From an uncultured Gammaproteobacteria bacterium (GTDB taxonomy: Bacteria; Pseudomonadota; Gammaproteobacteria; Pseudomonadales; Pseudohongiellaceae), in the NCBI GenBank assembly GCA_913060695.1, contig CAJXUA010000004.1:1-64000 (forward strand): a stretch of 64,000 nucleotides of DNA, given 5' to 3'. Under the pieces are notes generated by a model. That model ran no database searches. It had not been told where the DNA came from and saw only the letters and a program-made list of their open reading frames with translations. Below, piece by piece: positions 26,932-41,117 of this stretch (its first letter is position 1; every line of letters begins with the position of its first letter). A program made the translations under genes and the position numbers.

Positions 26932-27057
26932 CAATAGGATTGGCAGTAATCGGGGATTGGGTTCAGAATTCGTCAGCGAAAGTGTGATTCGAGGCAGCAG
27001 CCTCGATAGCGCTATGCTTAAATGCGACGTCTAAGTCGTAATGAGTTGTTATCGTTT

Positions 27058-28812
27058 ATGAAGATTTCTAGCCGCAAACCGGGCCTGTTCGGATTCATCT
27101 GTCTAATCGTCTGCGCTGCGCTGCCCAGCCTAGCAGCTGCGCAGCGTAGCACTGATTTTGCGTTGCTTGATCAGCACGGTACTTTCCATCAGCTTAGTCG
27201 CTACGGGGAGTCCAATGCCGTCGTGCTGTTCGTCCAAGGCAATGGGGAGGAGAGTTCGCGTCAGGCGCTGCCCCAGCTGCAAGCGCTGCAGGAACGTTAT
27301 CGAGAGCAGGGCGTTGTTGTTCTGCTGTTGAACCCAAACCCCACCCAAACTCGTACTTCCGTAGCCCAAGAATTGGCAAGCGTTGGAGTAGAGTTGCCGG
27401 TGCTATTAGATAGCGCTCAGGTGGTCGCCCGATCCCTGCAAGTCGAGTCGACAGCTCAGGCCTATATTCTCGACCCTGTATCCCACGATGTGCTCTACAC
27501 AGGGCCATTCAGCAGTCAGACCGCGAACGCCGATTCGGCTGGGTCTATTCCCTATCTCGAGAATGCCCTCATTGCGATCCTAGCTGGCCAAGAGGTCGAG
27601 CTAGCGGCCGACATGCCTAGTCCTGCCGGCACCCCGATCGATTACCTATACCGTAGCCGCTTCGCAGATCGCCAGATATCCTATCAAGATGAGATCGTGC
27701 CTATTCTCAAGCGCCGCTGCACTACCTGCCACATAGAGGATGGGCTTGCGCCCTGGGCGATGGTCAGCCATCGCATGGTGCAAGGCTGGAGTCCGATGAT
27801 TCGAGAAGTATTGGTGACGCATCGTATGCCACCTGGGCAGATCGATATGCTCGAGGGGGAGTGGGACAATGTGCATCAGATAAGTGACGATGAACTCATC
27901 ACCCTAGTGCACTGGATCGATAGTGGGGCGCGCCGCGAGGGGGATAGCGATCCTCTTACGGAACAGGTCGCTGTCGACGATAGCTGGAAGCTTGGCGAGC
28001 CAGATCTGATTATCGACGTGCCCGCCGAAAAAATCCCCGCCACAGGCATGGTGGACTTTAAGATCAAGCGAGCCGATCTCGCCTTGGAAAAAGATCAATG
28101 GATAAGTGCTGTTGCCTATAATGTTGGCGACCGTTCAGTGCTGCATAGCCTTCTAGTCTTTGCCGTCGACCCCAATATCGATCAGAAAGACTTGGTGGGC
28201 TTGATAGATCCAGCCAACGCCGAATTCATCAGTCTCTATGTGCCGCCGCGTACAGAGGAGTCTTTCGCGGACGATTCGGGTTTTCTGCTGCGGCAGGACC
28301 GCGACCTCAGTTTCAAATTGCGCTATGTAACAGGCGGCCGTGAGACCGAGGACAAGACGCGTATTGGCTTGTACTTTCGCGATTCCGCGCCTGAGTTCTC
28401 GGTGCACAATGTCATAACCCTGAATACAGGTTTCAACATTGCACCTGGCGAGGACAATCACGTAGAGATTGCGGAGACCGAGCCCTTCGAGCACGACGTA
28501 TTAGTAGAGAGTTTCGCGCCGCAGACCCATACGCGTGGCAAGAGCATGAGTATTTCTGCGCGCTATCCAGATGGCAGTGAGAAGCGCTTGATAAACGTCG
28601 CGAACTACAACTTCAATTGGCAGATGAACTACAAGCTTCAAGAGCGCCTGAGCTTGCCAGCGGGTTCAAGCCTAGTGTCTGAGACAGTGTATGACAACTC
28701 CGCCTCGAACCCGCAGAACGTGGACGCAGAAGCGCAGGTCAAGGTGGGTATAACCACCTATGACGAGATCTTCAGTCATTTCGTAAGAGTGCTCGAGCCT
28801 GTAGAGAATTGA
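27058..28812 (+). CDS. Redoxin-cytochrome c-copper monooxygenase-like protein, ligand-poor copy
   Basis: A 584-residue exported protein. After a signal peptide (1-29) comes a thioredoxin-like domain, about 32-175, which has GNGEESS where a CxxC would be. A haem c site, CTTCH, lies at 221-225, followed by HRMPPGQ whose Met257 could be the axial ligand. The C-terminal half resembles copper type II monooxygenases. Against its paralogue at 38099-39856, the copper ligand positions are changed: HH to HS at 363-364, LH to LR at 422, HMH to QTH at 489-491, and DEM to DEI at 571. It probably keeps electron transfer but not copper chemistry. I start at the ATG at 27058; an ATG at 27022 would bury the signal peptide. 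Confidence 0.8.
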   Translation: MKISSRKPGLFGFICLIVCAALPSLAAAQRSTDFALLDQHGTFHQLSRYGESNAVVLFVQGNGEESSRQALPQLQALQERYREQGVVVLLLNPNPTQTRTSVAQELASVGVELPVLLDSAQVVARSLQVESTAQAYILDPVSHDVLYTGPFSSQTANADSAGSIPYLENALIAILAGQEVELAADMPSPAGTPIDYLYRSRFADRQISYQDEIVPILKRRCTTCHIEDGLAPWAMVSHRMVQGWSPMIREVLVTHRMPPGQIDMLEGEWDNVHQISDDELITLVHWIDSGARREGDSDPLTEQVAVDDSWKLGEPDLIIDVPAEKIPATGMVDFKIKRADLALEKDQWISAVAYNVGDRSVLHSLLVFAVDPNIDQKDLVGLIDPANAEFISLYVPPRTEESFADDSGFLLRQDRDLSFKLRYVTGGRETEDKTRIGLYFRDSAPEFSVHNVITLNTGFNIAPGEDNHVEIAETEPFEHDVLVESFAPQTHTRGKSMSISARYPDGSEKRLINVANYNFNWQMNYKLQERLSLPAGSSLVSETVYDNSASNPQNVDAEAQVKVGITTYDEIFSHFVRVLEPVEN

Positions 28813-28817
28813 GAGTC

Positions 28818-29348
28818 TTAGTAGTCCCGCAATAGGCTGCGCATATCGCGCGTGTAGGGCAGCGCATAGTCGTGTGAAGCTACTATGACGCTGTCAGAGG
28901 TGCGTATCAGTTTTGCCGTTACGAAGACATTGTTCTCGCCCACAGCATAGGTGCCAGCTAGCACTAAATGTGCATTGTGCTGTGCACTGATGTCGTTAAC
29001 CTCGCGCGACAATAGGAAAGCACCCTGTGTCTCGCTGATGTAGACGCTATTACGCAGCAACATTTCCACTACGGAGTAACCAGCGGCAGTGAACTGCGAG
29101 GTCAACTGCTGCGAAGCAACACGGCCGAATGTAGAGGACTGTCCTAGATCGTTGATGTCCGCGAAACTGGCAACAATGATGTTGGTGCTCGGGCTGATCT
29201 GATTGCCTGCCATGCGAATGAGATTATTCGCGGCGGCGCGGTTGGTGCTGATGATCAGGTCGATGCCCGTGTCATATTCTTTGCTGGCACAGCCCGCTAT
29301 AGCAACTACACCTAAGACCAGTGCGCACACTCTCATGTGAAACTTCAT
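28818..29348 (-). CDS. FlgO-like outer membrane lipoprotein
   Basis: A 176-residue protein with a lipobox (VAIAGC, lipidated Cys20). The domain from IIVASFADINDLGQSSTFGR to HLVLAGTYAVGENNVFVTAK matches the FlgO family, whose founding member in Vibrio is an outer membrane protein that supports the flagellum. No flagellar gene is nearby. It starts at an ATG that shares a base with the stop of the upstream lipoprotein gene, so the two are coupled, and GAGGGGA is its binding site. Confidence 0.75.
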   Translation of the reverse strand: MKFHMRVCALVLGVVAIAGCASKEYDTGIDLIISTNRAAANNLIRMAGNQISPSTNIIVASFADINDLGQSSTFGRVASQQLTSQFTAAGYSVVEMLLRNSVYISETQGAFLLSREVNDISAQHNAHLVLAGTYAVGENNVFVTAKLIRTSDSVIVASHDYALPYTRDMRSLLRDY

Positions 29349-30040
29349 TATTCGTCCCCTCGCGCACTGACTACATTGAACACACGGCCTTGGCCACGGT
29401 ATTGGGCGATATCGTCCTCGTCGAAGTAATACACTCGGCTACTCGAGTGAACAATCTGTTGGCTGTCGCGGACGCGAGTACTGATGATGACTTCAGTAAC
29501 ACTGGCGGAACGATCCTTATTGAATTTATTCCACAAGTCGCCCGCTAGGCCGATCGGGATTAGAATTAGGCCGCGGTCTCCCCAGTGCTGGGAATCATTG
29601 ATGCCAACACCGGTAAGAAAGAAGGCTGTAATTAGCCCTGGCCTTGCGGGTAGCCATTCACGATCGTCATGCTCGATGACTTGCACGTCGTAGTCGAGTG
29701 TAAACAGTGCGTTCTCGCGGTTGAGCATCACAGCGACATTCTGGTCGACGAGACCAGCTTCGAGCATATTGTGATAAGCGCTTTGGAAGTCGCCGGCGTT
29801 ATTCGCTGGGCGGCCTAGGTAGATAGATGGTGTGATGACACCCCCGCCATCGCCTAGGCTGCTGCGTATCAGTTCGGACTCGTTCTGGGCAAGTAATTGC
29901 CAGTGACTAGCAGACTGCAAGCTTTGTTGTTCTGCTCCGGGGAACATCGTCGCGCGAGGGTAGGGCAGATAATCGTTGTTCCCGCAGGCAGCAAGAACCG
30001 AGCAGGTCAAACACAGTGCGAGCACGCGAGCAATATACAT
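29348..30040 (-). CDS. Lipoprotein of unknown function, partner of the FlgO-like gene
   Basis: A 230-residue protein whose signal peptide ends in a lipobox (LAAC, Cys19). I use the ATG at 30040, which has AGAGG eight bases upstream; an ATG at 30058 adds six residues. A hydrophobic patch, GLITAFFLTGVGIN, lies near residue 135, then GLILIPIGLAGDLWNKF. It overlaps the FlgO-like gene by one base, so a joint envelope complex is likely. I do not recognise a family. Confidence 0.7.
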   Translation of the reverse strand: MYIARVLALCLTCSVLAACGNNDYLPYPRATMFPGAEQQSLQSASHWQLLAQNESELIRSSLGDGGGVITPSIYLGRPANNAGDFQSAYHNMLEAGLVDQNVAVMLNRENALFTLDYDVQVIEHDDREWLPARPGLITAFFLTGVGINDSQHWGDRGLILIPIGLAGDLWNKFNKDRSASVTEVIISTRVRDSQQIVHSSSRVYYFDEDDIAQYRGQGRVFNVVSARGDE

Positions 30041-30126
30041 GGCGAAACCTCTAGTCATGACTTAATGCGCGGGCAAGCGCACTTACATCGCGGCAGTGTA
30101 CTACGAGTTGGAGGCCAGCGGAATTC

Positions 30127-30495
30127 TCAGTTGAGTATGCGATAACCTCGTCCACGTAGACAATTATGCACGACGCGATCGCGTTCGCTCAAACCAGATG
30201 AAGTACCCCGCACTCCGCCACCGATTGCGCCGACGCCCGCACCGCGAGTGGCGGTATTGCGATTACCCACCACAGCCCCTATGGCGCCGCCTATGACCGC
30301 GCCAGTGGCAGCTCCAACAACCGCCCGTTCGCCCACTGGAACTTGGTCTGCGATATCCTGGCATTCGCTGAGATCGGTTTGGTACCGGGTCATGTCGACG
30401 CCCTGGGGGTCGATGATAGGGCCTGAGTAGCCCGGACCGGACCGACAGGCTATGAGGGTAAGTAGGAAGGTGCCTAGAATAACGCGTTGCAACAT
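30127..30495 (-). CDS. Glycine-zipper lipoprotein
   Basis: A 122-residue protein with a lipobox at residues 14-17 (LIAC). A glycine-zipper segment, AVVGAATGAVIGGAIGAVVG, lies near residues 59-78 and probably inserts in or packs against the outer membrane. The family includes small outer membrane proteins of the SlyB/OmpA-linker kind. The ATG at 30495 has a GGAGG binding site; the frame could begin earlier but with no such site. The two terminal cysteines in SECQD and HNCLRG may form a disulfide. Confidence 0.8.
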   Translation of the reverse strand: MLQRVILGTFLLTLIACRSGPGYSGPIIDPQGVDMTRYQTDLSECQDIADQVPVGERAVVGAATGAVIGGAIGAVVGNRNTATRGAGVGAIGGGVRGTSSGLSERDRVVHNCLRGRGYRILN

Positions 30496-30628
30496 GATGA
30501 ACCTCCGTTGCTCGAAGACCAAAATAAAGGCATGGATGGCTAGCGTGAAAACGCGGTGCCACTCAAGCCTTAACGCGCGAGGTCAGGAGGGGTTTACAAA
30601 GTCTCGGTTCAGTACTGAAGTTTCAAGT

Positions 30629-31060
30629 CTATAGCTGCGCATTTACCCATTTTTGGAATTGTGCCGCAGGCATGGCGCCAGAAACCCTCGCCACTTCTTT
30701 GCCTTGTTTGAAGATCATGAGGGTTGGAATGCTACGAATGCCGTAGCGCTGAGCGAGTGCGGTTTCATTCTCTGTATTGACTTTGACTAATCGAACCTTC
30801 GGCTCTAGCACTGCGCTAGCTGCCTCAAATGTTGGAGCAAACTGCAAACAGGGGCCGCACCAGGGTGCCCAGAAGTCGACGACGATCGGCACGTCGCCGC
30901 CGAGGTGCTGGGCGAAGCTACTCTGCGTTAGTGCAATTGGCTTGCCGGTAAACAGGCTTTCCTTACAGGCGCCGCAAGTGCCGTGCGCGGTGAGTTTCTC
31001 CGCTGGCATGCGGTTCTTGCGATGGCAGTGAGGGCAGGTGACAAAGAGTTCGTTCGACAT
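30629..31060 (-). CDS. trxC: Thioredoxin 2
   Basis: A 143-residue disulfide reductase. An N-terminal zinc finger of Cys9, Cys12, Cys29 and Cys32 sets this apart from thioredoxin 1. The active site reads FWAPWCGPC with Cys68 and Cys71, and the cis-proline motif SIPTLMIFKQG follows. It acts in the cytosol with thioredoxin reductase and in oxidative stress in E. coli under OxyR control; I see no OxyR site that I can support here. Confidence 0.96.
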   Translation of the reverse strand: MSNELFVTCPHCHRKNRMPAEKLTAHGTCGACKESLFTGKPIALTQSSFAQHLGGDVPIVVDFWAPWCGPCLQFAPTFEAASAVLEPKVRLVKVNTENETALAQRYGIRSIPTLMIFKQGKEVARVSGAMPAAQFQKWVNAQL

Positions 31061-31246
31061 AATGATTGTGCTCCTACAATATAATAGTTCTAGGATACGC
31101 CTCGGCGCCGCGCATTAAAAATTAATAATCTAAGTCACATCGATAGGGTGCTGTGGGGCAGGGCTTTCTCGTTTCGGCCTAATCACATTGCATTAGCTGG
31201 CAATTTCTAAGATGCTGCCTTGTATTTGTTCGCCGAAGAACTGCAC

Positions 31247-32719
31247 ATGACTCAAGAATTGGAAACAAAGCCTCTCTCCGGCGCGCGCAGTCGCGCCGTC
31301 TGGCTAAGAAGTACGCTGGGTCTTTCGCAGAAAGAAGCCGTCGCCTCTGCGACGATGACGGCAACGGGCGACAACTTCTTCAATGCTTTTGCCATTTACC
31401 TCAATGCTACTGCTGTGCAGATGGGCTGGTTGATGGCAATTCCCCAGCTTTTCGGCGCCCTGTTTCAAGTGCTGTCAGCGTGGTTGGGGAATTACCTGCC
31501 GCGTAAACCTTTGGTGGTCGTAACAGCGCGCGTGCAGACTGCAGTGGTGCTGGGTCTGTCAATTCTCGCGCTGTCGCGCAGCGAGGGCTCAGTGTATTGG
31601 TTGATTGCTTTGGCCGTGCTGTATTTCTCCTGTATCAACTTCATTCAACCTCAGTGGCGGGCTTGGATGGGCAGCGTGGTGCCCCAGCGTCGCCGCGGCA
31701 CCTTCTTTGCCTCTCGTACTAGGCTGACAATGGTGGCCTCGCTGTTTATCTTCATGAGTGGCGGGGCGCTACTTAGTCTTAGCGAACGCTTTGACGTGGT
31801 GTGGCTTGGTTTTGCCATTCTCTTCGCCACTGCGGCGGTAGGGCGTGGTTTTTCATCGCGATACCTCGCGCAGATGCATGACCCTGATGCGAACCCCCAC
31901 CCGGCTGGGCGCAAGGGTTTCTGGCAGAGTGTGAAACAGCTGCGCGCATCTTTGTCCGACAAGACGTTTCGAGACTACAGTTTCTTCGTTGCGGGCATGC
32001 AAGGGGTGGTGGCAATCTCCGCGCCTTTCTTTGCAGTTTATATGCTGCGCGATCTGCAGTTCACTTATATTGAGTACAGCCTAAATTCTATCGCGTCGAT
32101 CCTAACACAGTTCCTATTGCTCAACTTCTGGGGGCGTTTCAGTGATCGTTTCGGCAATCGCTTAGTGATGCAGATTGCCAGTGTGTTGATCCCCTTTATG
32201 CCGCTGTTATGGTTATTTTCCGCAAATCACTACTACTTACTTTGTGTGCAAGTGATGTCCGGTTTTGTGTGGAGTGGTTTTAGTTTGAGCACTGCCAATT
32301 ATTTGTACGATATCCGGCCCCATAAGAGTGACTTCGCAGTGTATGCGGCAATGCAATCTGCGCTCGGAGCTGTGGCAGTTTTTCTTGGTGCGATTACGGG
32401 CGGGCTGATAGCCTCGGCGGCGCCGAGTGTCGTGGAATTTTTTCCGTTCCTGCGTGAAATTCGAAGCCCGATTTTTCTCGTGTTTTTCGCCAGCTTCGCG
32501 CTACGCATGGCGATCGCTATCTGGTTCATTCCAAGAGCGGTGGAGCCTCGAGTGCGCAGGCGTCCAAAGATACTGCAGATCATCTACCGAGTGTCACGCT
32601 TCAATGCTATCTCGGGTATCTCCCTAGACTGGCTAAGTGTGACCAAGCGCAGCAATACAACAAAGGAGTCGGATGCTGAGAAAGACCCGGCAGAGCTTGG
32701 CGAGGAAAAGGACTCCTAG
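31247..32719 (+). CDS. MFS transporter
   Basis: A 490-residue integral membrane protein with about twelve hydrophobic segments, ending in a charged tail (TTKESDAEKDPAELGEEKDS). The start chosen is the ATG at 31247; a TTG at 31220 adds nine residues. GDNFFNAFAIYL near residue 40 and the loop WMGSVVPQRRRGTFFASRTR near 145 fit the major facilitator fold. The substrate cannot be told. Its 3' end comes within three bases of the convergent SMI1/KNR4 gene. Confidence 0.85.
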   Translation: MTQELETKPLSGARSRAVWLRSTLGLSQKEAVASATMTATGDNFFNAFAIYLNATAVQMGWLMAIPQLFGALFQVLSAWLGNYLPRKPLVVVTARVQTAVVLGLSILALSRSEGSVYWLIALAVLYFSCINFIQPQWRAWMGSVVPQRRRGTFFASRTRLTMVASLFIFMSGGALLSLSERFDVVWLGFAILFATAAVGRGFSSRYLAQMHDPDANPHPAGRKGFWQSVKQLRASLSDKTFRDYSFFVAGMQGVVAISAPFFAVYMLRDLQFTYIEYSLNSIASILTQFLLLNFWGRFSDRFGNRLVMQIASVLIPFMPLLWLFSANHYYLLCVQVMSGFVWSGFSLSTANYLYDIRPHKSDFAVYAAMQSALGAVAVFLGAITGGLIASAAPSVVEFFPFLREIRSPIFLVFFASFALRMAIAIWFIPRAVEPRVRRRPKILQIIYRVSRFNAISGISLDWLSVTKRSNTTKESDAEKDPAELGEEKDS

Positions 32720-32722
32720 TTT

Positions 32723-33121
32723 CTAGTCGGCGAGCCAGACATCCTTGCACCAAAGCCAGATGTTGTCCCAGCCCTCGTCGGAGGTCTTCTCATCCCAGAA
32801 AAGAATTGCGCCGTCTTGGCGGATGCAATAGTAACCGCCATTGGCCTCACAAATTGGCAGGTATTTGCGTGGCAGCCCGAGGCTCCATGCAACGGCTGCC
32901 ATCTCTGGGAGAAAGGTATGCGAGTTTGGGTCACTCACCGTGACGGGCTCTAAATGCCCACAGACCACATCACTTACCTGCATCAGGTAGTCGCGCAAGT
33001 CGTCGGGCAATGAGACATAAAGTGCCTCTTCTATTTCTATGAGCAAGTCCTCGTCCGGTAACTCGAGAGGGACCGGCACGGGTTCATTGCGCTCGCGTAG
33101 CATTTCAATTACATCTTCCAT
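32723..33121 (-). CDS. SMI1/KNR4 family protein
   Basis: A 132-residue acidic protein. LPDEDLLIEIEEALYVSLPDDLRDYL, cut here at its typical sequence, and the later PICEANGGYYCIRQDGAILF and NIWLWCKDVW regions fit the SMI1/KNR4 (SUKH) fold. SUKH proteins are often immunity proteins to contact-dependent toxins, but no toxin gene is adjacent. One base separates it from the exported protein gene upstream, so they share a transcript. Confidence 0.75.
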   Translation of the reverse strand: MEDVIEMLRERNEPVPVPLELPDEDLLIEIEEALYVSLPDDLRDYLMQVSDVVCGHLEPVTVSDPNSHTFLPEMAAVAWSLGLPRKYLPICEANGGYYCIRQDGAILFWDEKTSDEGWDNIWLWCKDVWLAD

Positions 33122-33122
33122 T

Positions 33123-34163
33123 CTAAGGTGCTGCTCCTGTTTCTCGCTCTTCCACGCGCGCGCCCGCTAGCACACCAGGTAGAGCATAGTTGCCTTCATG
33201 ACAGGCGTATTCATATAAGCGGTCTTCTGTAGACTTCATCGGGATCTCGGCGGTCCAAGGTGCGACGAATGTCGTGGGGTCGTTCAGTGTAACGCTATAG
33301 TTAACGGTATCTGCTGCGACGCGCGTAAAACGCTCGCTTACAACTAGATTCTCACTCGCGCCGCGATAGCTTTGTAATGAGTTGAAGTTGCGTGTCTCAA
33401 CTACGAGTGTGTCCCCTTCCCAGTGTCCTATCGAGTCACCTAGCCAAGGCGCGTGTACTGCGGGTAGCGGGTCGGCGTCGATGCGTATGATACGCGCATC
33501 GTGCACCATTTCGACAAGTATCATGACATAGCCGGGCGATTGCACAATCTGATAATGGTTGTTGTACAGAATCGGAAGCATGGGTGGACCAGAGCTCGAA
33601 CCAAAAGAGAGTAGGCAGCGCTCGGCAAGCGGGCGCGATTCTGGTCCCTTGAACGGTGCTTGGCTGCGTGCTTGTGCAGCGGCAGCCAGACGTTGTTGAG
33701 CAGCTTCGGTGAAGGCGGGAATGCGGCCGTTGGCCGGGTCGACTATGAGGGAGGTGCGGCGTTCTCCGTTGTAGATGGCAACCGTGGTGCCATCGTCGAA
33801 CCAGAAGTTGTTATAGCTGTCTTCGAGGTCGATCTGGCCTTTCGTAGGAGGCGGTCGATTAGGGTCGCTGGGCAGGTCTGCGAGCGCGCTGCGCTGCGCC
33901 ACCTCCCGCTCCATCTCCTGTTGTTCTTGCTCGCTCAAGAAGGCTTTGTTGGCAAACTGAGTAGGGCGCTCTAGTGGGGTGATAGTGTTGTTGGTCCACA
34001 TGCCTTGCAGGTCTGCTTTGCCATCGACTGTGCGCGGCGCAGTATAATCGCCGGTTTGTGCGGTACTGGTCATTGATATCAGCGCCACGAGGATTAAAAG
34101 GCCGGCTGCGGGAGCTAGGCGCAGATGCATAGTAACGCGATCTACTACACGACACTTGTTCAT
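33123..34163 (-). CDS. Exported protein of unknown function
   Basis: A 346-residue secreted protein. Signal peptide: RLAPAAGLLILVALISMTSTAQ, cut near the AQ, with a longer N-terminal tail. The mature start, APRTVDGKADLQGMWTNNTITP, is a motif I know from many uncharacterised exported proteins of environmental bacteria. A second block contains DSIGHWEGDTLVVETRNFN and a third TVNYSVTLNDPTTFVAPW. The ATG at 34163 has GGAGAA upstream. No catalytic residues are clear. It is co-transcribed with the SMI1/KNR4 gene. Confidence 0.7.
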   Translation of the reverse strand: MNKCRVVDRVTMHLRLAPAAGLLILVALISMTSTAQTGDYTAPRTVDGKADLQGMWTNNTITPLERPTQFANKAFLSEQEQQEMEREVAQRSALADLPSDPNRPPPTKGQIDLEDSYNNFWFDDGTTVAIYNGERRTSLIVDPANGRIPAFTEAAQQRLAAAAQARSQAPFKGPESRPLAERCLLSFGSSSGPPMLPILYNNHYQIVQSPGYVMILVEMVHDARIIRIDADPLPAVHAPWLGDSIGHWEGDTLVVETRNFNSLQSYRGASENLVVSERFTRVAADTVNYSVTLNDPTTFVAPWTAEIPMKSTEDRLYEYACHEGNYALPGVLAGARVEERETGAAP

Positions 34164-34244
34164 TATTATTCTCCGAGTTGTGCTCGTCAGTGAGTTTTGG
34201 CAGAGTAGCAAAGTCGTTCGAAATTAGGCAACTAGAGCGCGCTG

Positions 34245-35006
34245 TTATGGTTTGCGGAGCCGTAACAAGTATTGATCTGTGCTGCGATTGAGCATTGGGT
34301 CGAATATTGAACGCATATGACGATCCTGCGAGTTTGCTAGCAAGTTACTCTCCGCCTCGAGTACGAAACCTGCCTCCTCGACTACTTGTATTGCGGCCTC
34401 TTTTGGAAGGCGGTGCAGTCGTCGGTTGTCGCGACCGACTACTCCCTCGTGATCGATGATGCCCACCACACCAGCCGGTTTAAGGACGTAATACACATTG
34501 CGTAGCATGCTGATGGCGCGCTGTGGATGACTATTGAAATAGTCATGGAGAATCTGCGAGATCAACACGAAGTCAACGGAGTTTTCCGCGAGTCCAAGAT
34601 CGCTGACTGGGCGCTCTAGGCGCTGCACGTTATCGAGCTGACCGGCTAGGATTCTTGCCTCGAGTGCTACGCTGCGGGTGCGCTCGCCACGGTCCTCCTC
34701 CAAGTTCAATCCGCTGGGTGAGTTCTGTGCATACACAAGCCCCTCGGGCCCGACTGCCTTGGCGAGAATATAGCTGTAGTAGCCCCCAGCCGCATAGAGG
34801 TCTAGGACCACCATGCCTGGGCGCAATTGCAGAAACTCCAGTGTCTGGACAGGCTTGCGTTTAGGGTCGCGAATGCGGTCACTTACGTCGCGCCCGGAAG
34901 CCTTTAGCGCGGTCTCCAAAGCCTCTGTGTCCAAGGACTGTGCGGCGCAATTGGCAGCAATGCACAAGGTCAGTAGCGTTGTGAGGAATAAATGGTAATG
35001 TCGCAC
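34245..35006 (-). CDS. Exported class I SAM-dependent methyltransferase-like protein
   Basis: A 253-residue protein with a signal peptide (MRHYHLFLTTLLTLCIAANC, mature near AQSL). The rest is a Rossmann-type methyltransferase fold of the predicted-methyltransferase group. Motif I is VVLDLYAAGGYYSYILA, and later FVLISQILHDYF and LKPAGVVGIIDHEG are strand and loop motifs of the fold. I choose the GTG at 35006, which has CGGAGA at an ideal distance; the upstream ATGs lack a site. S-adenosylmethionine is not known to be available in the periplasm, so the real ligand is uncertain. Confidence 0.7.
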   Translation of the reverse strand: MRHYHLFLTTLLTLCIAANCAAQSLDTEALETALKASGRDVSDRIRDPKRKPVQTLEFLQLRPGMVVLDLYAAGGYYSYILAKAVGPEGLVYAQNSPSGLNLEEDRGERTRSVALEARILAGQLDNVQRLERPVSDLGLAENSVDFVLISQILHDYFNSHPQRAISMLRNVYYVLKPAGVVGIIDHEGVVGRDNRRLHRLPKEAAIQVVEEAGFVLEAESNLLANSQDRHMRSIFDPMLNRSTDQYLLRLRKP

Positions 35007-35107
35007 GACTTTTAGTCTCCGAATGTGACTTGGTACTGGCATCATAGGCTGGATTTGAGACAATGCCCATTTTGCACTATTCATTTCGTACTACAAGAAG
35101 GCACAAC

Positions 35108-35773
35108 ATGAGTCTATTACCCGCCGTCGAACTCGTCAGCCCAGCAGGCGCAAGCCCCGATGCCAGCATCATTTGGCTGCATGGACTCGGCTCCGATGGG
35201 CACGATTTCGCAGGCATTGTTCCCGAGCTACATCTTCCTAGCACGATGGCCGTGCGTTTCGTGCTTCCCCACGCACCCTCTATACCCGTGACAATCAATA
35301 ATGGCTTTGTGATGCCCGCTTGGTATGACATCTTGGAAATGGATATAGGAAGAACCGTCGACACCGACCAGCTTATACAATCGGCGAAAGCTGTCCACGC
35401 GTTAATCGACAGAGAGATTGAAAGAGGCATAGATAGCAGCCGCATCATTCTTGCCGGTTTCTCCCAAGGTGGTGCTGTCATCTTGCACGCGGCTTTAAGC
35501 TGCCCTTATCCTTTAGCCGGCGCGCTTTCTTTGTCGAGTTATTTTCCGACTAGTGACACGATTGTCCCACACGAAGCGAATCGTGAATTACCCATTTTGG
35601 TATGCCATGGTACGCGCGACCCCATGGTCAATGAGGCATTAGGGAGGAAGGCAGAGGCAGATCTGCGTGCACTCGGACATCCCACGCAATATCGAAATTA
35701 CCCAATGGAACATTCCGTCTGTCTTGAACAGATACGGGACATCTCTGCGTGGTTTCAGGAACGATTAGGCTAG
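35108..35773 (+). CDS. Carboxylesterase / lysophospholipase-like hydrolase
   Basis: A 221-residue cytosolic alpha/beta hydrolase of the Abhydrolase_2 (EstB) family. The oxyanion region reads WLHGLGSDGHDF. The nucleophile Ser119 is in GFSQGG, the acid Asp171 in CHGTRDPMV, and the histidine is His202 in MEHSV. Length and triad spacing fit bacterial carboxylesterases acting on short-chain esters. The ATG at 35108 follows AAGAAGG. It is divergent from the methyltransferase gene. Confidence 0.9.
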   Translation: MSLLPAVELVSPAGASPDASIIWLHGLGSDGHDFAGIVPELHLPSTMAVRFVLPHAPSIPVTINNGFVMPAWYDILEMDIGRTVDTDQLIQSAKAVHALIDREIERGIDSSRIILAGFSQGGAVILHAALSCPYPLAGALSLSSYFPTSDTIVPHEANRELPILVCHGTRDPMVNEALGRKAEADLRALGHPTQYRNYPMEHSVCLEQIRDISAWFQERLG

Positions 35774-35782
35774 TAAGTGGCC

Positions 35783-36211
35783 CTACAAGCCAACGCCTCT
35801 TGCCATCAGGTAGGCAAGCACTGGGATGAAGGCAAGCAGCACTAGTTCGATGCGCAAAACGCGAATAACGCCTGCGGGGACTAGGATTGGTTCCACCTGG
35901 TTTTTGCGTTGGCGCAAGAAGAACACGGTAGGGTAGATGGACAGTAGCGCTACGAGTACGAACAGCGTGAGCTTGGCGTGAAACACTGGGTTGCTGCTGT
36001 AGAAGCTGCTTGGCTTGCCTACCCACAACCAAAGACTGATGCCTAAAATGGCGACTAGGCCGGCGCTGAGTCCATATACCGCGTCGACCTTGAGGAGATT
36101 ACGCAAGTCCTCGCGCGAGATCTCTTTGCCTATCGCAATGTTCTCAATTATGAGAGTGCCGGCGAGTACGATGACAGCGAATAGGTGGAGGTATCGAATC
36201 AACACGTCCAT
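35783..36211 (-). CDS. DUF2214 membrane protein
   Basis: A 142-residue protein with four hydrophobic segments. MDVLIRYLHLFAVIVLAGTL and the DAVYGLSAGLVAILGISLWL part match the DUF2214 family, whose role is unknown. The conserved His in RYLHLF recalls haem-binding membrane proteins such as CopD, but this is only a resemblance. It lies 18 bases downstream of a glutaredoxin-like gene on the same strand, with a GCGGAG binding site. Confidence 0.75.
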   Translation of the reverse strand: MDVLIRYLHLFAVIVLAGTLIIENIAIGKEISREDLRNLLKVDAVYGLSAGLVAILGISLWLWVGKPSSFYSSNPVFHAKLTLFVLVALLSIYPTVFFLRQRKNQVEPILVPAGVIRVLRIELVLLAFIPVLAYLMARGVGL

Positions 36212-36229
36212 TTTTATACTCCGCAAACA

Positions 36230-36619
36230 TTAGTCAGGGGATGGTAGCGTAGAGGCAATTCCGTGTTTAGTTAGGATTTGAGCAAGCTTAGTACTTCGGA
36301 GCGCGACTGCAGTCTCGGTGTAGCCGCCAAGCCCCTCACCGCCAATGAATAGCTGCGGCAGAGTGTTGCTGTGAGTGATTTCCTTGAGTCGCCCGCGGAC
36401 CTCGCTTTGCAAGTTTGGCTCTAGAAACTCCCCTTGATCGAGCTCTATCACGCGATACTTCACTCCTATTTGGTCGAGCAATTGTTTGGCTGCGCGGCAG
36501 AATGAGCACCAGCTTAAAGAAAAGAGTACAACTGCCGCCTGTGGGGTGGAGATAGCATCATCGACCAAATCCCGCCCGTTGCGTGGGGCTGGTTTGGAGC
36601 TTGAAACGATTTCACTCAT
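36230..36619 (-). CDS. Glutaredoxin-like protein
   Basis: A 129-residue thioredoxin-fold protein. The active site is LSWCSFCRAAKQLL (CxxC), followed by the glutaredoxin-typical YRVIELDQGEFL, the TLPQLFIGGEGLGGYTE cis-Pro and GSH-binding region. It thus looks redox active, with WCSFC in place of the classical CPYC. I start at the ATG at 36619; an ATG at 36631 adds four residues. It probably shares a transcript with the DUF2214 gene. Confidence 0.85.
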   Translation of the reverse strand: MSEIVSSSKPAPRNGRDLVDDAISTPQAAVVLFSLSWCSFCRAAKQLLDQIGVKYRVIELDQGEFLEPNLQSEVRGRLKEITHSNTLPQLFIGGEGLGGYTETAVALRSTKLAQILTKHGIASTLPSPD

Positions 36620-36772
36620 TGGTAATTCCATTCGGCGAAAAGATGTGTATTGTCGCACAAAATATGGGCAGTTTCTCGGGCTCTAATGATCTGGGTCAGC
36701 GTTATAGTAGATTTAGCTGTGCTAAAGTGCTCGCGTTGCTTTTCGGGCATAAACTATTAGGAGAATTGTCAA

Positions 36773-37144
36773 ATGATTGGTTATATAACTCTTGGTACGA
36801 ATGATCTTCAACGCGCTGGTGCCTTTTATGATTCGTTATTGGCAGAGCTCGGCGCGGCTCGCACGATGGACTATCCCACTTTTATCGCATGGGGAACAAG
36901 TCCCGAACGTACTGCTCTATCAGTGATTAAGCCTTACGACGGCAATCCCGCGACAGTAGGTAATGGAGTCATGGTGGGATTACAAGCCGACAGTCGCGAG
37001 ACAGTTGAGCGTGTTTATAATAAGGCGATGGCATTGGGCGCTAAAGACGAAGGCCCGGCGGGACCTCGAGGCGATGCATTTTATGCAGGCTATTTTCGAG
37101 ATCCGGACGGCAATAAGTTGAATATTTTTTACGCCGGGCAGTGA
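36773..37144 (+). CDS. VOC family protein (glyoxalase/bleomycin resistance fold)
   Basis: A 123-residue protein with a single vicinal oxygen chelate domain. IGYITLGTNDLQRAGAFYDSLL opens the first beta-alpha module, and GYFRDPDGNKLNIFYAG closes the second. The usual metal ligands (His near the start, Glu near the end) read Tyr and Asn, so metal binding is doubtful. TAGGAGAATTG is the binding site. The TetR gene follows after 73 bases. Confidence 0.88.
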   Translation: MIGYITLGTNDLQRAGAFYDSLLAELGAARTMDYPTFIAWGTSPERTALSVIKPYDGNPATVGNGVMVGLQADSRETVERVYNKAMALGAKDEGPAGPRGDAFYAGYFRDPDGNKLNIFYAGQ

Positions 37145-37163
37145 ATTAGGGCCTTGCAACAAA

Positions 37164-37185
37164 GGCGAGCTGAAAGCGGCTCGCC
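37164..37185 (+). terminator. Hairpin between the VOC and TetR genes
   Basis: A perfect 7-bp stem, GGCGAGC at 37164-37170 with GCTCGCC at 37179-37185, has an 8-base loop. Downstream is ATTGCTTG and no clear T-run, so termination would be weak or partial. Confidence 0.4.
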
Positions 37186-37217
37186 ATTGCTTGAATAACA
37201 ATTAGGACAAGCGTTTC

Positions 37218-37883
37218 ATGGATCATCAAAACACGAATGAGCGCAGCGAAGTGCCGGCTGAGCCGATGCTACCCAAGCCGGGCTTGCGAGAGCGCAAGAA
37301 ACGCTTGCGTCTTCAGCGCATTATCGATGTGTCGCATCAGCTATTTGTTAGTAAAGGCTTCCAAGACACTACTATTCAAGATATTGCCGACGAGGCCGGC
37401 ATAGGGCTCGGAACGCTTTATCTTTATGCCAAGGGTAAGGATGATCTTCTAGTACTGGTATTCCGCGAACACCTGTTGCAGATGACAGAATCTGCCTTCG
37501 AGATCATCGACCCAAAAGATCCTGTTATAGACCAGTTGATGACCTTTTTCTCAGTACACATCGACTACCATAAAGAGGATCAATTGCTCTCTAGAACGGT
37601 TCTAAAGGAGCTATCTTTCCCTAGCAATCCCAAAAGAAGGCACGATATTGAGTTAATCTTCAATACAGCTTATGAGAAATTGGCTTTGCTATTAAAGCGC
37701 GGAATCAAGGTTGGCAAGCTTAACTCAAGCCTCTATGTTGGTACTGCCGCCAGTAGTATTTTCGGCCTTTACTATCACCTCTTACAGGGTTTTCTCTGCG
37801 GATTCTTTACGGAGAAAGAGTTCAAGAAGAATCTCCGTCATGCACTGGATATGCTCCTAGCCAGCGCCAATCGCGACGCCTAA
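37218..37883 (+). CDS. TetR family transcriptional regulator
   Basis: A 221-residue repressor-type protein. The N-terminal helix-turn-helix spans residues 35-80 with TTIQDIADEAGIGLGTLYLY in the middle. The C-terminal ligand-binding half is not recognisable in detail. It starts 73 bases after the VOC gene and precedes the cytochrome-monooxygenase-like gene at 38099, so it may control one or both. The ligand cannot be deduced. Confidence 0.92.
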   Translation: MDHQNTNERSEVPAEPMLPKPGLRERKKRLRLQRIIDVSHQLFVSKGFQDTTIQDIADEAGIGLGTLYLYAKGKDDLLVLVFREHLLQMTESAFEIIDPKDPVIDQLMTFFSVHIDYHKEDQLLSRTVLKELSFPSNPKRRHDIELIFNTAYEKLALLLKRGIKVGKLNSSLYVGTAASSIFGLYYHLLQGFLCGFFTEKEFKKNLRHALDMLLASANRDA

Positions 37884-37923
37884 AACTCCTGCCTGCATTC
37901 TAAATTCTTGCTGATTTCTACAA

Positions 37924-38030
37924 TTGACAAAGTGATGAGGGATAAACTCTTACTCATGACGCTTCCCGTTTGCATTGCTCGGGGGCGGTGCTAGCATCTG
38001 TCACAATATGGACTAAGTGAATTTGTTCAT
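37924..38030 (+). promoter_or_regulatory. Upstream region of the cytochrome-monooxygenase-like gene with inverted repeats
   Basis: The gap holds a consensus-like TTGACA at 37924, without a matching -10 at 17 bases. It also holds two inverted repeats: GTGATGAG (37932-37939) against CTCATGAC (37953-37960), one mismatch, and AGTGAA-TTTG-TTCATT (around 38016-38031), one mismatch. Either could be an operator for the adjacent TetR protein. This is inference only. Confidence 0.3.
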
Positions 38031-38098
38031 TTTTTGATCATAATGCTGATTTTTGGCAAGAACATTAATATTGTCAGTTGTAAATTTTGGAGAAACCC

Positions 38099-39856
38099 AT
38101 GTTCACGAAGCTCAAGAACAAGAATTATCGGCAGTGGCAACTTGCCCTCGCGGCACTAGTTTGTGCCGCGCTAACAACGCCTTTGCACGCCGCGGAGCGT
38201 GTTGGGGATTTCTCTCTTCTCGATCAGAATGGCAAATTTCACCACATGGCATGGTATGACGACCACAAGGCCATCGCCTTCCTGGTGCAAGTCAATGGCA
38301 GTGCGGCGACACGTACCGCAGCCGCTGAATATGAGCGTCTACAAGCCGAATTCGATGCTCAGGGCATCGAGTTCATGATGATCAACCCTCTGGGGCAGGC
38401 GCGAGATTTGGTTCAGGCCGAGGTCGCTACTCTGGGTACAACTCTTCCTGTGCTAATCGATGACGCGCAAATAGTGTCTCAGGCGATGGGTGTTCAGCGC
38501 AGTGGCGAGACATTCCTTTTCGATCCACGCACCTTTGAGGTGATTTACCGCGGCCCGGTTGCAGGTCTGCAAAGTGCACTTGGGGAAGTGGCCGCAGGGC
38601 AAGCGATCAGCGCGCCTATGCTAGCGATGACGGGCACCGATGTTGATTATCAGTCGAGTCAGCAGATAGCACAGCACGGTGTCTCTTATAGTGAAGACGT
38701 TGCCCCAATTATTGAGCAAAATTGCGCCAGCTGTCACCGAGTGGGTGGCATAGCGCCATTTGCGATGGATAGCCATGCAATGCTGCAGGGTTGGTCTCCC
38801 ATGATTCGCGAAGTCTTAATGACTAAGCGTATGCCACCAGGCCAGCTCGATCCTCACGTTGGTAATTTCTCCAACGACTATAATTTGGCTGTTGCAGACC
38901 AGCAGAAGCTTATCCAATGGATTGAGGCTGGCTCTGTAAAAGACGGCAGTGTTGACCCGCTGGCAGAACTGACCTGGCCTGAGTCGAAGTGGGCTTTCGG
39001 TGAGCCAGACTTGATCGTTAAGCTGCCGCCTCAGAATATTCCCGCTACAGGCATACTCGAGTATAGGACAGTGATTGTGCCGTTCGAGGGCTTGGACAGA
39101 GACCGTTGGGTACGTGCTAGTGAGTATCTTGCTGGCGACAGACAAGTTCTGCACCACACACTCAATGCCGTAATGCAGCCAGGCGAGACTCGTCCTCGTG
39201 GCTTCTTAGGCGAAGTCGACCCCAACGCAGCCTATATAACGCCCTATATTCCTGGTGCGGAGCCCCATATCGAGAAGCCCAATACCGGTGGCTTGCTCAA
39301 GGCAGGGTCTAAACTTGCTTTGCAATTGCACTACACGACTATGGGCAAAGAGACTGTAGATGCCAGCGAAATCGGGATCTGGTTCTACCCTGATGACCAG
39401 ATTCCTCAGGAGCGTCTATCCAGCGAGTGTGCCTGCATATTCCCAGATAAGTGGACCAATATTCCCGCTTACGATCCAGATTTCGAGCAGCAGCAGAGCA
39501 TCACTATTGAAGCCGACGCCTATTTGCAGAGCTTCATTCCGCATATGCACTTCCGCGGCAAGAGCATGAGTTTCGCCGCCCACTTTCCCAATGGAGAGGT
39601 GGAGCAGCTCATCAATATCGCCAACTACAACTACAATTGGCAGATCGACTATAAGCTCGAGGAGCCAGTGTTCGTGCCTGCAGGAACGAAGATCGTAGTG
39701 ACCGCGGCTTACGATAACTCTAGTCAGAACAAGGCTAACCCTGATCCTGCGCGCACAGTGCCGTGGGGCGATCAGAGTTGGGATGAGATGTTCTTCGGTC
39801 AAGTGTATTGGAAGTATGTTGATCAGAGCGCATTCGTGAGCTCATTAGCACAATGA
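38099..39856 (+). CDS. Redoxin-cytochrome c-copper monooxygenase-like protein, ligand-complete copy
   Basis: A 585-residue exported protein with the signal peptide ending near residue 32. A thioredoxin-like domain (about 35-165) lacks the CxxC and reads QVNGSAAT there. The haem c site CASCH is at 209-213, followed by KRMPPGQ with Met245 as a possible axial ligand. The C-terminal half resembles copper type II monooxygenases: HH at 352-353, LH at 411, HMH at 482-484 (PHMHFRGKSM), and Met564 in WDEMFFG. Those match the two-site His and His/Met ligand pattern of peptidylglycine monooxygenase. The substrate is unknown. I use the ATG at 38099, seven bases after a GGAG site. Confidence 0.82.
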   Translation: MFTKLKNKNYRQWQLALAALVCAALTTPLHAAERVGDFSLLDQNGKFHHMAWYDDHKAIAFLVQVNGSAATRTAAAEYERLQAEFDAQGIEFMMINPLGQARDLVQAEVATLGTTLPVLIDDAQIVSQAMGVQRSGETFLFDPRTFEVIYRGPVAGLQSALGEVAAGQAISAPMLAMTGTDVDYQSSQQIAQHGVSYSEDVAPIIEQNCASCHRVGGIAPFAMDSHAMLQGWSPMIREVLMTKRMPPGQLDPHVGNFSNDYNLAVADQQKLIQWIEAGSVKDGSVDPLAELTWPESKWAFGEPDLIVKLPPQNIPATGILEYRTVIVPFEGLDRDRWVRASEYLAGDRQVLHHTLNAVMQPGETRPRGFLGEVDPNAAYITPYIPGAEPHIEKPNTGGLLKAGSKLALQLHYTTMGKETVDASEIGIWFYPDDQIPQERLSSECACIFPDKWTNIPAYDPDFEQQQSITIEADAYLQSFIPHMHFRGKSMSFAAHFPNGEVEQLINIANYNYNWQIDYKLEEPVFVPAGTKIVVTAAYDNSSQNKANPDPARTVPWGDQSWDEMFFGQVYWKYVDQSAFVSSLAQ

Positions 39857-39977: not shown

Positions 39978-40802
39978 CTACTTAGCTTTTTCGATCGGTG
40001 TGCGCAGGATGCCAACGCCTTCTACTTCTACTTCGTAGGTGTCGCCGCCCACCATTTCACGCGTACGGCCCATAGTGCCAGACCAGATGATATCGCCTGG
40101 CTCTAGAACGAAATAGTGGGAGATGTAGCTCACCATGTAGTCGAAATTGTAGAGCATGTCAGACGTGTTCTCGCCCTGGCGCACTTCGCCATTCAGGCGG
40201 CCTTCGATCTTCAACTCGTTCGGGTTCAGGCCCGTGACGATTTTCGGTCCTACCGCGTTAAAGGTCTTGCTGCCTTTCGCGCGTGTCCACTGTAGATCCG
40301 CACCTTGCCAATCACGCGCGCTGCCGTCGTTGCCAGCAGTGACGCCGAAGATGTAGTCGCGCGCATCTTCCAATGCAACATTCTCTGCATGCTTGCCGAT
40401 AACTACGATAGCCTCAGCCTCGTAATGGAAATTGTTGGAGTCCGCGGGAATAACCATTGTCTCGCCTGGTCCAATGATGGAGTTGGCGGGAACAATGAAG
40501 AGGCCGGGATATGCTGCTGGCTCACCGGTGAGATGGCTACGGAAGTTCAGGGCTGTCATCACGACCAGCTCTGGGTCGACTGGCGCCTTAAGCATAACGG
40601 CAGACTCCGCCACCGTTTGACCAGTATGAGTGCCGCCAAGATAGGGGGCGTCAGTCAATTGATGGATGGTAGTGCCTTGCAGCTCACCCCAAGAAATCAC
40701 CCCATTTTGCTCGTATCGAACGAATTCAGCGGCTTGGGCCGAAGCTACCATGGCGCCTGAAACTAAAAGACCTGCTACTAACTTATTAAATGAATGCGTC
40801 AC
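39978..40802 (-). CDS. Exported fumarylacetoacetate hydrolase-family protein
   Basis: A 274-residue protein with a signal peptide (1-24, LLVSGAMVASAQA) followed by an FAH-fold domain. Metal ligands appear intact at Glu128, Glu130 and Asp159 (YEAEAIVVIGKH and AGNDGSARDWQ), and a lysine at RAKGSKTF is also kept. The family cleaves carbon-carbon bonds in acylpyruvates and related oxo acids or decarboxylates oxaloacetate, and is normally cytosolic, so export is odd. A GTG start at 40802 has the unusually complete binding site AGGAGGTGAT. An earlier reading would add 19 residues and lacks such a site. Confidence 0.83.
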   Translation of the reverse strand: MTHSFNKLVAGLLVSGAMVASAQAAEFVRYEQNGVISWGELQGTTIHQLTDAPYLGGTHTGQTVAESAVMLKAPVDPELVVMTALNFRSHLTGEPAAYPGLFIVPANSIIGPGETMVIPADSNNFHYEAEAIVVIGKHAENVALEDARDYIFGVTAGNDGSARDWQGADLQWTRAKGSKTFNAVGPKIVTGLNPNELKIEGRLNGEVRQGENTSDMLYNFDYMVSYISHYFVLEPGDIIWSGTMGRTREMVGGDTYEVEVEGVGILRTPIEKAK

Positions 40803-41117
40803 GCAATCACCTCCTCTATGTGGATTTGGGCTACGACAACCCGTCTCTCGCAATGTCACGAAACCGGGAAGGCTTTGCCCTTTCTAATTATATAGCGATT
40901 TGCGGATTGGGCCCGGAAGTGAGTCTCAATACTGCGGGCACTATCGTGAACCTAAATAGAAGTCGAATCAAGCACTGGGAAGAGAACAATGTGCTCGTTG
41001 CGCCCTAGTACAGTTGTTGTATGGGGGTATAGTTTGAGTTTGTAGTAAATGGGCTTATGATTCTTATTCGCTGCACTTCCTTTCCAATGATAAAAAGCTG
41101 AAGTAGGGTGCCTTCAA
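40803..41117. other. 315-base non-coding gap
   Basis: This divergent region must hold the upstream signals of both the FAH-fold gene and the serine hydrolase gene. Apart from the FAH ribosome binding site at 40804-40820 I see no convincing promoter pair, no hairpin and no RNA gene. A 72-codon open frame (40790-41008, plus strand) has no binding site and no family resemblance. Confidence 0.6.

Follow-up and report, generated by a model that had tools for sequence, protein, structure and literature searches.

The roles of the two coppers in peptidylglycine alpha-hydroxylating monooxygenase (PHM) and dopamine beta-hydroxylase (DBH), and the 11 Å that separate them, have been probed mainly with laboratory mutants. 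Here we analyse two genes in a 64,000-nucleotide stretch of DNA from an uncultured gammaproteobacterium of the family Pseudohongiellaceae (contig CAJXUA010000004.1, positions 1 to 64,000; the whole stretch is referred to below as the window). Their products, P0001 and P0002, are paralogues with a fused redoxin-like domain, c-type haem motif and PHM-fold part; P0002 has all six copper ligands, whereas the copper sites of P0001 are dismantled. In the P0001 lineage, the residues at the PHM positions H108, H172, H242 and M314 have changed naturally; PMC6123673, the source of the PHM residue numbering, describes laboratory mutants at H107, H108, H172 and M314.

Rat PHM (1PHM and the mutants H108A, H172A, and M314I) was taken as the reference enzyme. 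Both window proteins resemble it in the two-domain fold, which gave the top Foldseek E-value for both models, and the order of the six ligands in P0002 is that of PHM. The window proteins differ from PHM in the fused N-terminal redoxin-like and c-haem domains and in the low level of identity (12–17%); moreover, P0001 is without a complete copper site. Human DBH (4ZEL) has the same catalytic fold (Foldseek TM 0.36–0.38 by target length); it carries a different N-terminal domain, DOMON, and, to our knowledge, no haem c. The N-terminal domain of P0001 and P0002 shares its fold with ResA and thioredoxin-like proteins (1ST9, 3U5R) but, unlike the ResA-type proteins, has no cysteine in the redoxin region and hence no thiol chemistry there. 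Pseudoenzymes have lost catalytic residues while fold and selection are kept, and we class the P0001 type among them, as PHM-fold pseudoenzymes that still carry a haem motif. It differs from pseudoenzymes generally in that one active site appears to have been dismantled in two lineages, in the opposite order, with the motif for a second cofactor (haem) kept. A search of open-licence full texts, which leaves most subscription journals outside, revealed no literature on the fused bacterial family or on its natural copper-site loss.

Ligand States and Predicted Fold of the Two Window Proteins

The P0001 gene lies on the forward strand at 27058–28812 (584 amino acids from this ATG; 596 as the open reading frame 27022–28812), and the P0002 gene, also on the forward strand, at 38099–39856 (585 amino acids; 589 as the open reading frame 38087–39856). 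Both proteins are exported-looking, with a signal-peptide-like start judged by eye in P0001, and they are probably exported. The initial annotation had described them as paralogues with shared blocks, and this description holds: the quoted blocks are present, and 205 of 554 aligned columns are identical (37%) and 325 positive (BLASTP, E 1e-134).

In P0002, the CuH ligands are the HH pair (39152–39157) and the His of LQLHY (39329–39331), and the CuM ligands are HMH (39542–39550) and the Met of DEMF (39788–39790). In P0001, H375-S376 (28144–28149) replaces the HH of CuH (PHM H107, H108), K432-L-R434 (28315–28323) replaces Q-L-H (PHM Q170, H172), and Q501-T-H503 (28522–28530) replaces the HMH of CuM (PHM H242, H244); I583 occupies the PHM M314 position, followed by the lineage-specific H586 (28768–28779). 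Thus, neither the three histidines of CuH (HS and R in P0001) nor the HxH plus Met of CuM (QTH and I) are present. These states had been read correctly in the initial annotation, as had the CXXCH of both proteins, but its description of the ligand loss in P0001 as complete goes too far: four of the six PHM-type ligands are replaced, and H375 (H107-like) and H503 (H244-like) remain.

The haem attachment motif is CTTCH in P0001 (27718–27732, residues 233–237) and CASCH in P0002 (38723–38737), and it was found in all 25 rows of the P0001 lineage described below; M269 in the MPPG of P0001 is also invariant and may be regarded as a candidate axial haem Met. The preceding domain of P0001 (27145–27474, residues 42–151) matches the AhpC-TSA family (PF00578, 1.4e-10), with 41.6 bits against 26.1 bits in P0002 and a cut-off of 26. 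There are no cysteines in this region in P0001 and P0002, nor in 23 of the 25 lineage rows, so that the label “redoxin,” used from the start, is justified by the fold and the profile match, but is only the name of a fold without thiol catalysis there. The Cu2_monoox_C model (PF03712) scored below its cut-off of 23 bits in both proteins (20.2 and 19.4 bits); in the search of the whole genome, P0001 reached 23.1 bits, over the cut-off, and P0002 20.4 bits. The N-terminal PHM model, which we take to be PF01082, was not reported at E ≤ 1 for either protein.

AlphaFold2 models were computed from the window proteins with Genome Taxonomy Database (GTDB) homologues as input, and reached pLDDT 88.3 and pTM 0.85 for P0001 and 87.0 and 0.84 for P0002. 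With Foldseek, the P0001 model found PHM first (3mll, E 6.9e-15, TM by target length 0.66), and the PHM chains among the matches listed gave TM values of 0.57–0.69 by PHM length. For P0002 a PHM entry was also first (6nck, E 3.1e-9, 0.57 by target length; listed PHM chains 0.46–0.58), with redoxin-fold entries ranking closely after PHM. Both proteins are thus predicted to have the two-domain PHM fold. When a profile of the copper region, built from 40 sequences, was run against the PDB, every match at E < 0.1 was a PHM chain (E 0.022–0.037). Inspection of this alignment by eye placed the columns LH, HxH, and DEM on PHM H172, H242/H244, and M314, with HH offset by one residue. By alignment, K432 and R434 are the counterparts of Q170 and H172; S376 matches H108 by motif. 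The superposition of the four ligand groups on PHM, proposed earlier as a check, is therefore borne out at the level of fold and alignment only, with HH off by one.

Distribution of the P0001 Lineage and Order of Ligand Loss

The GTDB was scanned, one genome per species, for either of two short exact peptide patterns, which gave 418 relatives; the best 80 of these were kept and correspond to 78 loci. Given the required peptide match and the cut at 80, the resulting list falls short of a complete census, and the HS copies of six of the 15 genomes of genus g4 (G016 included) are missing from it. Of the 78 loci, 24 carry HS together with R/K, and the remaining 54 retain the complete ligand set. 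Together with the window copy, the degenerate loci make 25 rows, 15 of which are altered at both sites and 10 of which retain HAH and Met. In a tree of 92 rows, built with the ligand columns masked and without the split pair and the lone redoxin of the window's genome (see below), these 25 rows form one clade (SH-aLRT 100).

Within the family, the lineage was found in 30 of 137 genomes: 27 by a match to P0001 at E 1e-140, and a further three (G066, G070, and G076), which have no such match yet carry the lineage ligand states, by profile. In the profile search, loci L190–L193 scored 503–542 bits, within the range of other paralogues. The state of CuM follows the genera. All 14 genomes of the window's genus have HS, R, Q[TA]H, and I, V, or T, whereas all 16 other carriers have HS, R or K, and the intact CuM ligands HAH and M; 15 of the latter belong to genus g4, which includes Pseudohongiella, and one to genus g7. 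One genome (G011) carries an extra copy with HS, R, QMH, and I. Among 293 genomes across the order, 10 match the lineage profile at 1e-160, seven within the family and three outside it, and those three are intact. One locus of the window's genus (L116, CAMCRC010000062.1) is titled as a metagenome-assembled genome of Klebsiella pneumoniae; it falls inside the genus by tree and synteny, and it is probably a mislabelled bin.

Several residues distinguish the lineage from 60 intact rows (a set that excludes the split pair, the lone redoxin, six redoxin-less paralogues, and C2:173180). S376 is fixed in 25 of 25 lineage rows, K432 in 24 of 25, R434 in 24 of 25 (Lys in one), and H586 is present in 25 of 25 lineage rows and in none of the 60 intact rows. 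The retained H375 and H503 are invariant in 28 lineage rows. P0001 itself keeps 22 of 22 strongly conserved columns of the haem domain and 47 of 60 in the copper domain, and the natural CuM-only proteins of the sister genera retain exactly the H107-, H242-, H244-, and M314-like residues.

According to these sequence states, the simplest history would be a single loss of CuH in the lineage's ancestor, with the loss of CuM following later. The double-loss rows are weakly supported as a group (59) because the branch of the extra copy L120 is long, and CuM may therefore have been lost more than once. Sequencing or assembly error as the source of the ligand loss can be dismissed, as the same states recur in 30 genomes. 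Spread by plasmid was likewise rejected: P0001 had no match in the PLSDB plasmid collection.

Selection

The P0001 orthologues gave dN/dS values of 0.037–0.172, compared with 0.022–0.071 for the P0002 orthologues, and the P0001 value was the higher in five of six species pairs; several dS values in these pairs exceed 1, and the ratios are hence rough. In the P0001 lineage, the haem region was the lowest in five of six pairs (0.012–0.054), and the copper region ranged over 0.036–0.237; among the P0002 orthologues, the haem region was the tightest in three of six pairs and the copper region in the other three. Purifying selection on P0001, together with the kept fold and haem motif, suggests functional divergence. 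A pseudogene is ruled out by the dN/dS values and the open frames; one stop codon lies within the aligned part of three of the 28 matches (G012, G067, and G074), where frames of 586, 571, and 569 amino acids nevertheless read open.

A Second Lineage With the Opposite Order of Loss

A second pseudo-monooxygenase lineage is represented in the window's genome by G000:C2:173171-174859 (L194; L238:8172-9860, minus strand), in which the HxH of CuM has become [K/R]M[N/G/S]: Lys or Arg stands in place of the first His, and Asn, Gly, or Ser in place of the second. We read 44 loci of this lineage, orthologues and near relatives together. Thirty-five are without the CuM histidines and keep CuH, six are without the CuM histidines and at least one CuH ligand, and three are intact; the Met is kept in 34 of the 41 altered loci, replaced by Ile or Val in six, and falls in a gap in one. 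In the window's genus, all 14 members are changed at the CuM HxH, and six of the 14 are changed also at CuH, with the H172-like residue becoming Gln in six and the H108-like residue becoming Gln in four. The dN/dS values were 0.025–0.067 in six of seven pairs and undefined in one, with saturated dS.

The two lineages are well separated on the tree, and the haem motif is kept in every row read of both. Judging from the aligned ligands, the same dicopper site has been taken apart in two lineages, starting from CuH in one and from the CuM histidines in the other. Two intact rows (L218 and L228) stand at a fork without resolution, so that the tree does not establish a single loss in the second lineage. 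Genome G016 holds both half-site states, namely a CuM-only protein (L059; HS, R, HAH, M) and a CuH-only protein (L219; HH, H, RMN, V). Such proteins were considered as the two members of a working split pair, but this is thought unlikely because no CuM-only member occurs in the 14 genomes of the window's genus and the second lineage occurs, at E 1e-130, in only three of the 15 g4 genomes (G016, G071, and G072).

The natural orthologues therefore carry three ligand states under selection, one with CuM ligands and no CuH, one with CuH and no CuM histidines, and one with neither site, and the half-site orthologues would permit direct tests of the contribution of each copper and of the fused haem. 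The recurring change of His to Arg or Lys hints at a simple way to retire a copper site with the fold kept.

Probable Role of P0001 and Alternative Explanations

On balance, we lean towards the view that P0001 is a haem-only pseudo-monooxygenase, which would hold no copper and perform no oxygenation, and in which the haem would serve electron transfer or the protein would be a scaffold for binding or regulation. Its three domains contain only two cysteines, both of the haem motif; with no cysteine beyond this motif and no complete copper site, the haem is the only evident redox centre. Rat PHM loses its activity when H107, H108, or H172 is replaced by Ala (PMC6123673). The proposed course would begin at the base of the lineage with CuH, where the H108-like residue became Ser and the H172-like residue Arg (Lys once), the Q170-like residue became Lys, and a new His arose three residues after the M314 position. 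The second step, in the window's genus, would have affected CuM, with the H242-like residue becoming Gln and the M314-like residue Ile, Val, or Thr. Arg or Lys would place a charge where copper had been, and a cation at the position of a ligand His could hold the pocket closed. The fused c-type haem would have stayed through both losses. P0001 would then be a monooxygenase scaffold that most likely now acts as a c-type cytochrome of the periplasm or has a binding or regulatory role.

Several observations weigh against this view. According to PMC6123673, copper and substrate binding in solution can survive a single mutation at the CuH site of PHM, and a changed ligand set alone is therefore no proof that the site is empty. 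Neither H375 nor H503 varies in the lineage, and H586 is both new and invariant there, which is compatible with a different metal site, and the AlphaFold model of P0001 contains neither metal nor haem. The gene neighbourhoods gave no partner gene or operon pointing to electron transfer by P0001. Finally, the dN/dS of the copper region in the P0001 lineage is 2.8–4.6 times that of the P0002 orthologues in five of six pairs and equal to it in the sixth; the copper domain of P0001 is kept, but under looser constraint. This last point, together with the haem region having the lowest dN/dS in five of six pairs, is what would be expected if the copper domain were a relic in partial decay and selection kept mainly the haem domain. 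We regard such decay as quite unlikely, as the copper region is clearly constrained, 47 of its 60 conserved columns are kept, and the lineage-specific residues are fixed across genera.

A re-purposed site, in which H375, H503, and H586 would form a new mononuclear centre between the PHM sub-domains and P0001 would still be a metalloenzyme, accounts for the invariance of each of these histidines although four neighbouring ligands changed. It also has a parallel in the H108A mutant of PHM with citrate, where, according to PMC6123673, H107 moves away from CuH and, together with H242 and H244, binds a single copper in a closed form. However, the P0001 model is somewhat nearer to open PHM (3mib, TM 0.69, rmsd 3.5) than to the closed 6ala (TM 0.60–0.62, rmsd 5.6–5.9), which speaks mildly against a new site, given that some open PHM entries score as low as 6ala; furthermore, in the window's genus the H242-like residue, one of the three closed-form His ligands, is Gln. 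We consider this explanation unlikely. A very unlikely alternative, in our estimation, is the one put forward in the initial annotation, that P0001 and P0002 are a subfunctionalised pair with one catalytic protein and one electron carrier or assembly partner. The kept fold and haem motif, the lost ligands, and the purifying selection agree with functional divergence as such. In addition, 29 of the 30 carriers of the lineage also have a P0002-type gene (the exception, G006, is 76% complete), and in seven of the 14 genomes of the window's genus (G000, G001, G003, G004, G005, G010, and G012) the two genes share a contig at a distance of about 5–22 kb. The phylogeny does not support a split between P0001 and P0002 themselves: the P0001 lineage joins the C40:3382 clade of 13 intact rows (SH-aLRT 87), the closest paralogue of P0002 in the genome is C8:1689 (72%), and constraining the P0001 lineage with the P0002 clade was rejected (p-AU 0.0043, for groups named after the tree had been seen), so that a direct duplicate pair is rejected by both the tree and the test. 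The co-occurrence is one-sided as well. P0002-type genes (E 1e-180) are present in 101 of 137 family genomes, 72 of which have no detected member of the lineage, and the co-occurrence is therefore one of nested taxonomy and not the obligate one that had been suggested as a check. In the window, about 9 kb separates the two genes, which share no operon, and no P0002-type gene was present in the flanking DNA (10 kb or less) of the nine loci run from the sister genera.

Returning to P0001 as a haem-only protein derived in steps, the orthologues of the Pseudohongiella group may represent the intermediate. They could be natural single-copper PHM enzymes, with CuH gone and its charge replaced by Arg or Lys, and with the c-haem or hydrogen peroxide feeding CuM, a proposal that we offer tentatively and consider rather unlikely. 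If true, it would describe a path from a dicopper monooxygenase through a haem-fed mono-copper enzyme or peroxygenase to a copper-free haem protein in the window's genus, and the second lineage would be walking the opposite way, through CuH-only proteins.

Gene Neighbourhoods and Other Members of the Family

Directly upstream of P0001 lies a leucyl-tRNA synthetase gene (24397–26931, forward strand; named by eye). The neighbourhood comparison covered 22 loci, with L115 and L124 left out. A leucyl-tRNA synthetase homologue precedes the P0001 orthologue in all 12 loci of the genus that were run (L108–L114, L116–L119, and L133), and is missing at the extra copy L120, also from a genome of the genus, and at the nine sister-genus loci. 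Loci L123, L126, and L128 have a 39–40% homologue of the gene at 33123–34211, and in L123 there is also a fragment with 84% identity to the FAA hydrolase adjoining P0002. The two genes that flank P0002, at 39978–40859 (minus strand) and 37218–37883 (forward strand), comprise one for a TetR regulator and one for an FAA hydrolase whose N-terminus looks exported; the TetR gene recurs in L108–L110, and the FAA hydrolase in L109, L110, and L118.

The window's genome has eight full-length redoxin-haem-copper proteins, one split pair, six haem-copper proteins without the redoxin, and a lone redoxin. Thirteen of its 15 copper-domain proteins retain all six ligands, the exceptions being P0001 and C2:173171-174859 (KMN for HMH). 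In the split pair (G000:C4:234739-236585; L243:6746-8724, minus strand), a copper gene is followed by a redoxin-haem gene, an arrangement which suggests that the two halves may work together. One full-length paralogue (G000:C2:210076-211782, L013) has HAH; C-terminal EF hands occur in one of 40 copper regions scanned, which, from its tail, is taken to be L013.

Exported-looking proteins are encoded beside haem-copper genes in two places of the genome (L238:9914-11041, minus strand, and L238:5562-6497, forward strand; L241:2161-3318 and L241:4896-5810, both forward strand). They are alike by eye and have no clear Pfam family, with one weak PKD hit. Exported-looking NHL beta-propeller proteins (L239:7299-8336 and L239:10008-11189, both forward strand; G000:C40) lie beside two intact copies, and both match the PAL lyase half of the animal enzyme PAM, ranked below other NHL structures. 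NHL homologues also occur close to L184 and to 10 of the 12 loci fetched for that intact clade, in what resembles a PHM-plus-PAL neighbourhood.

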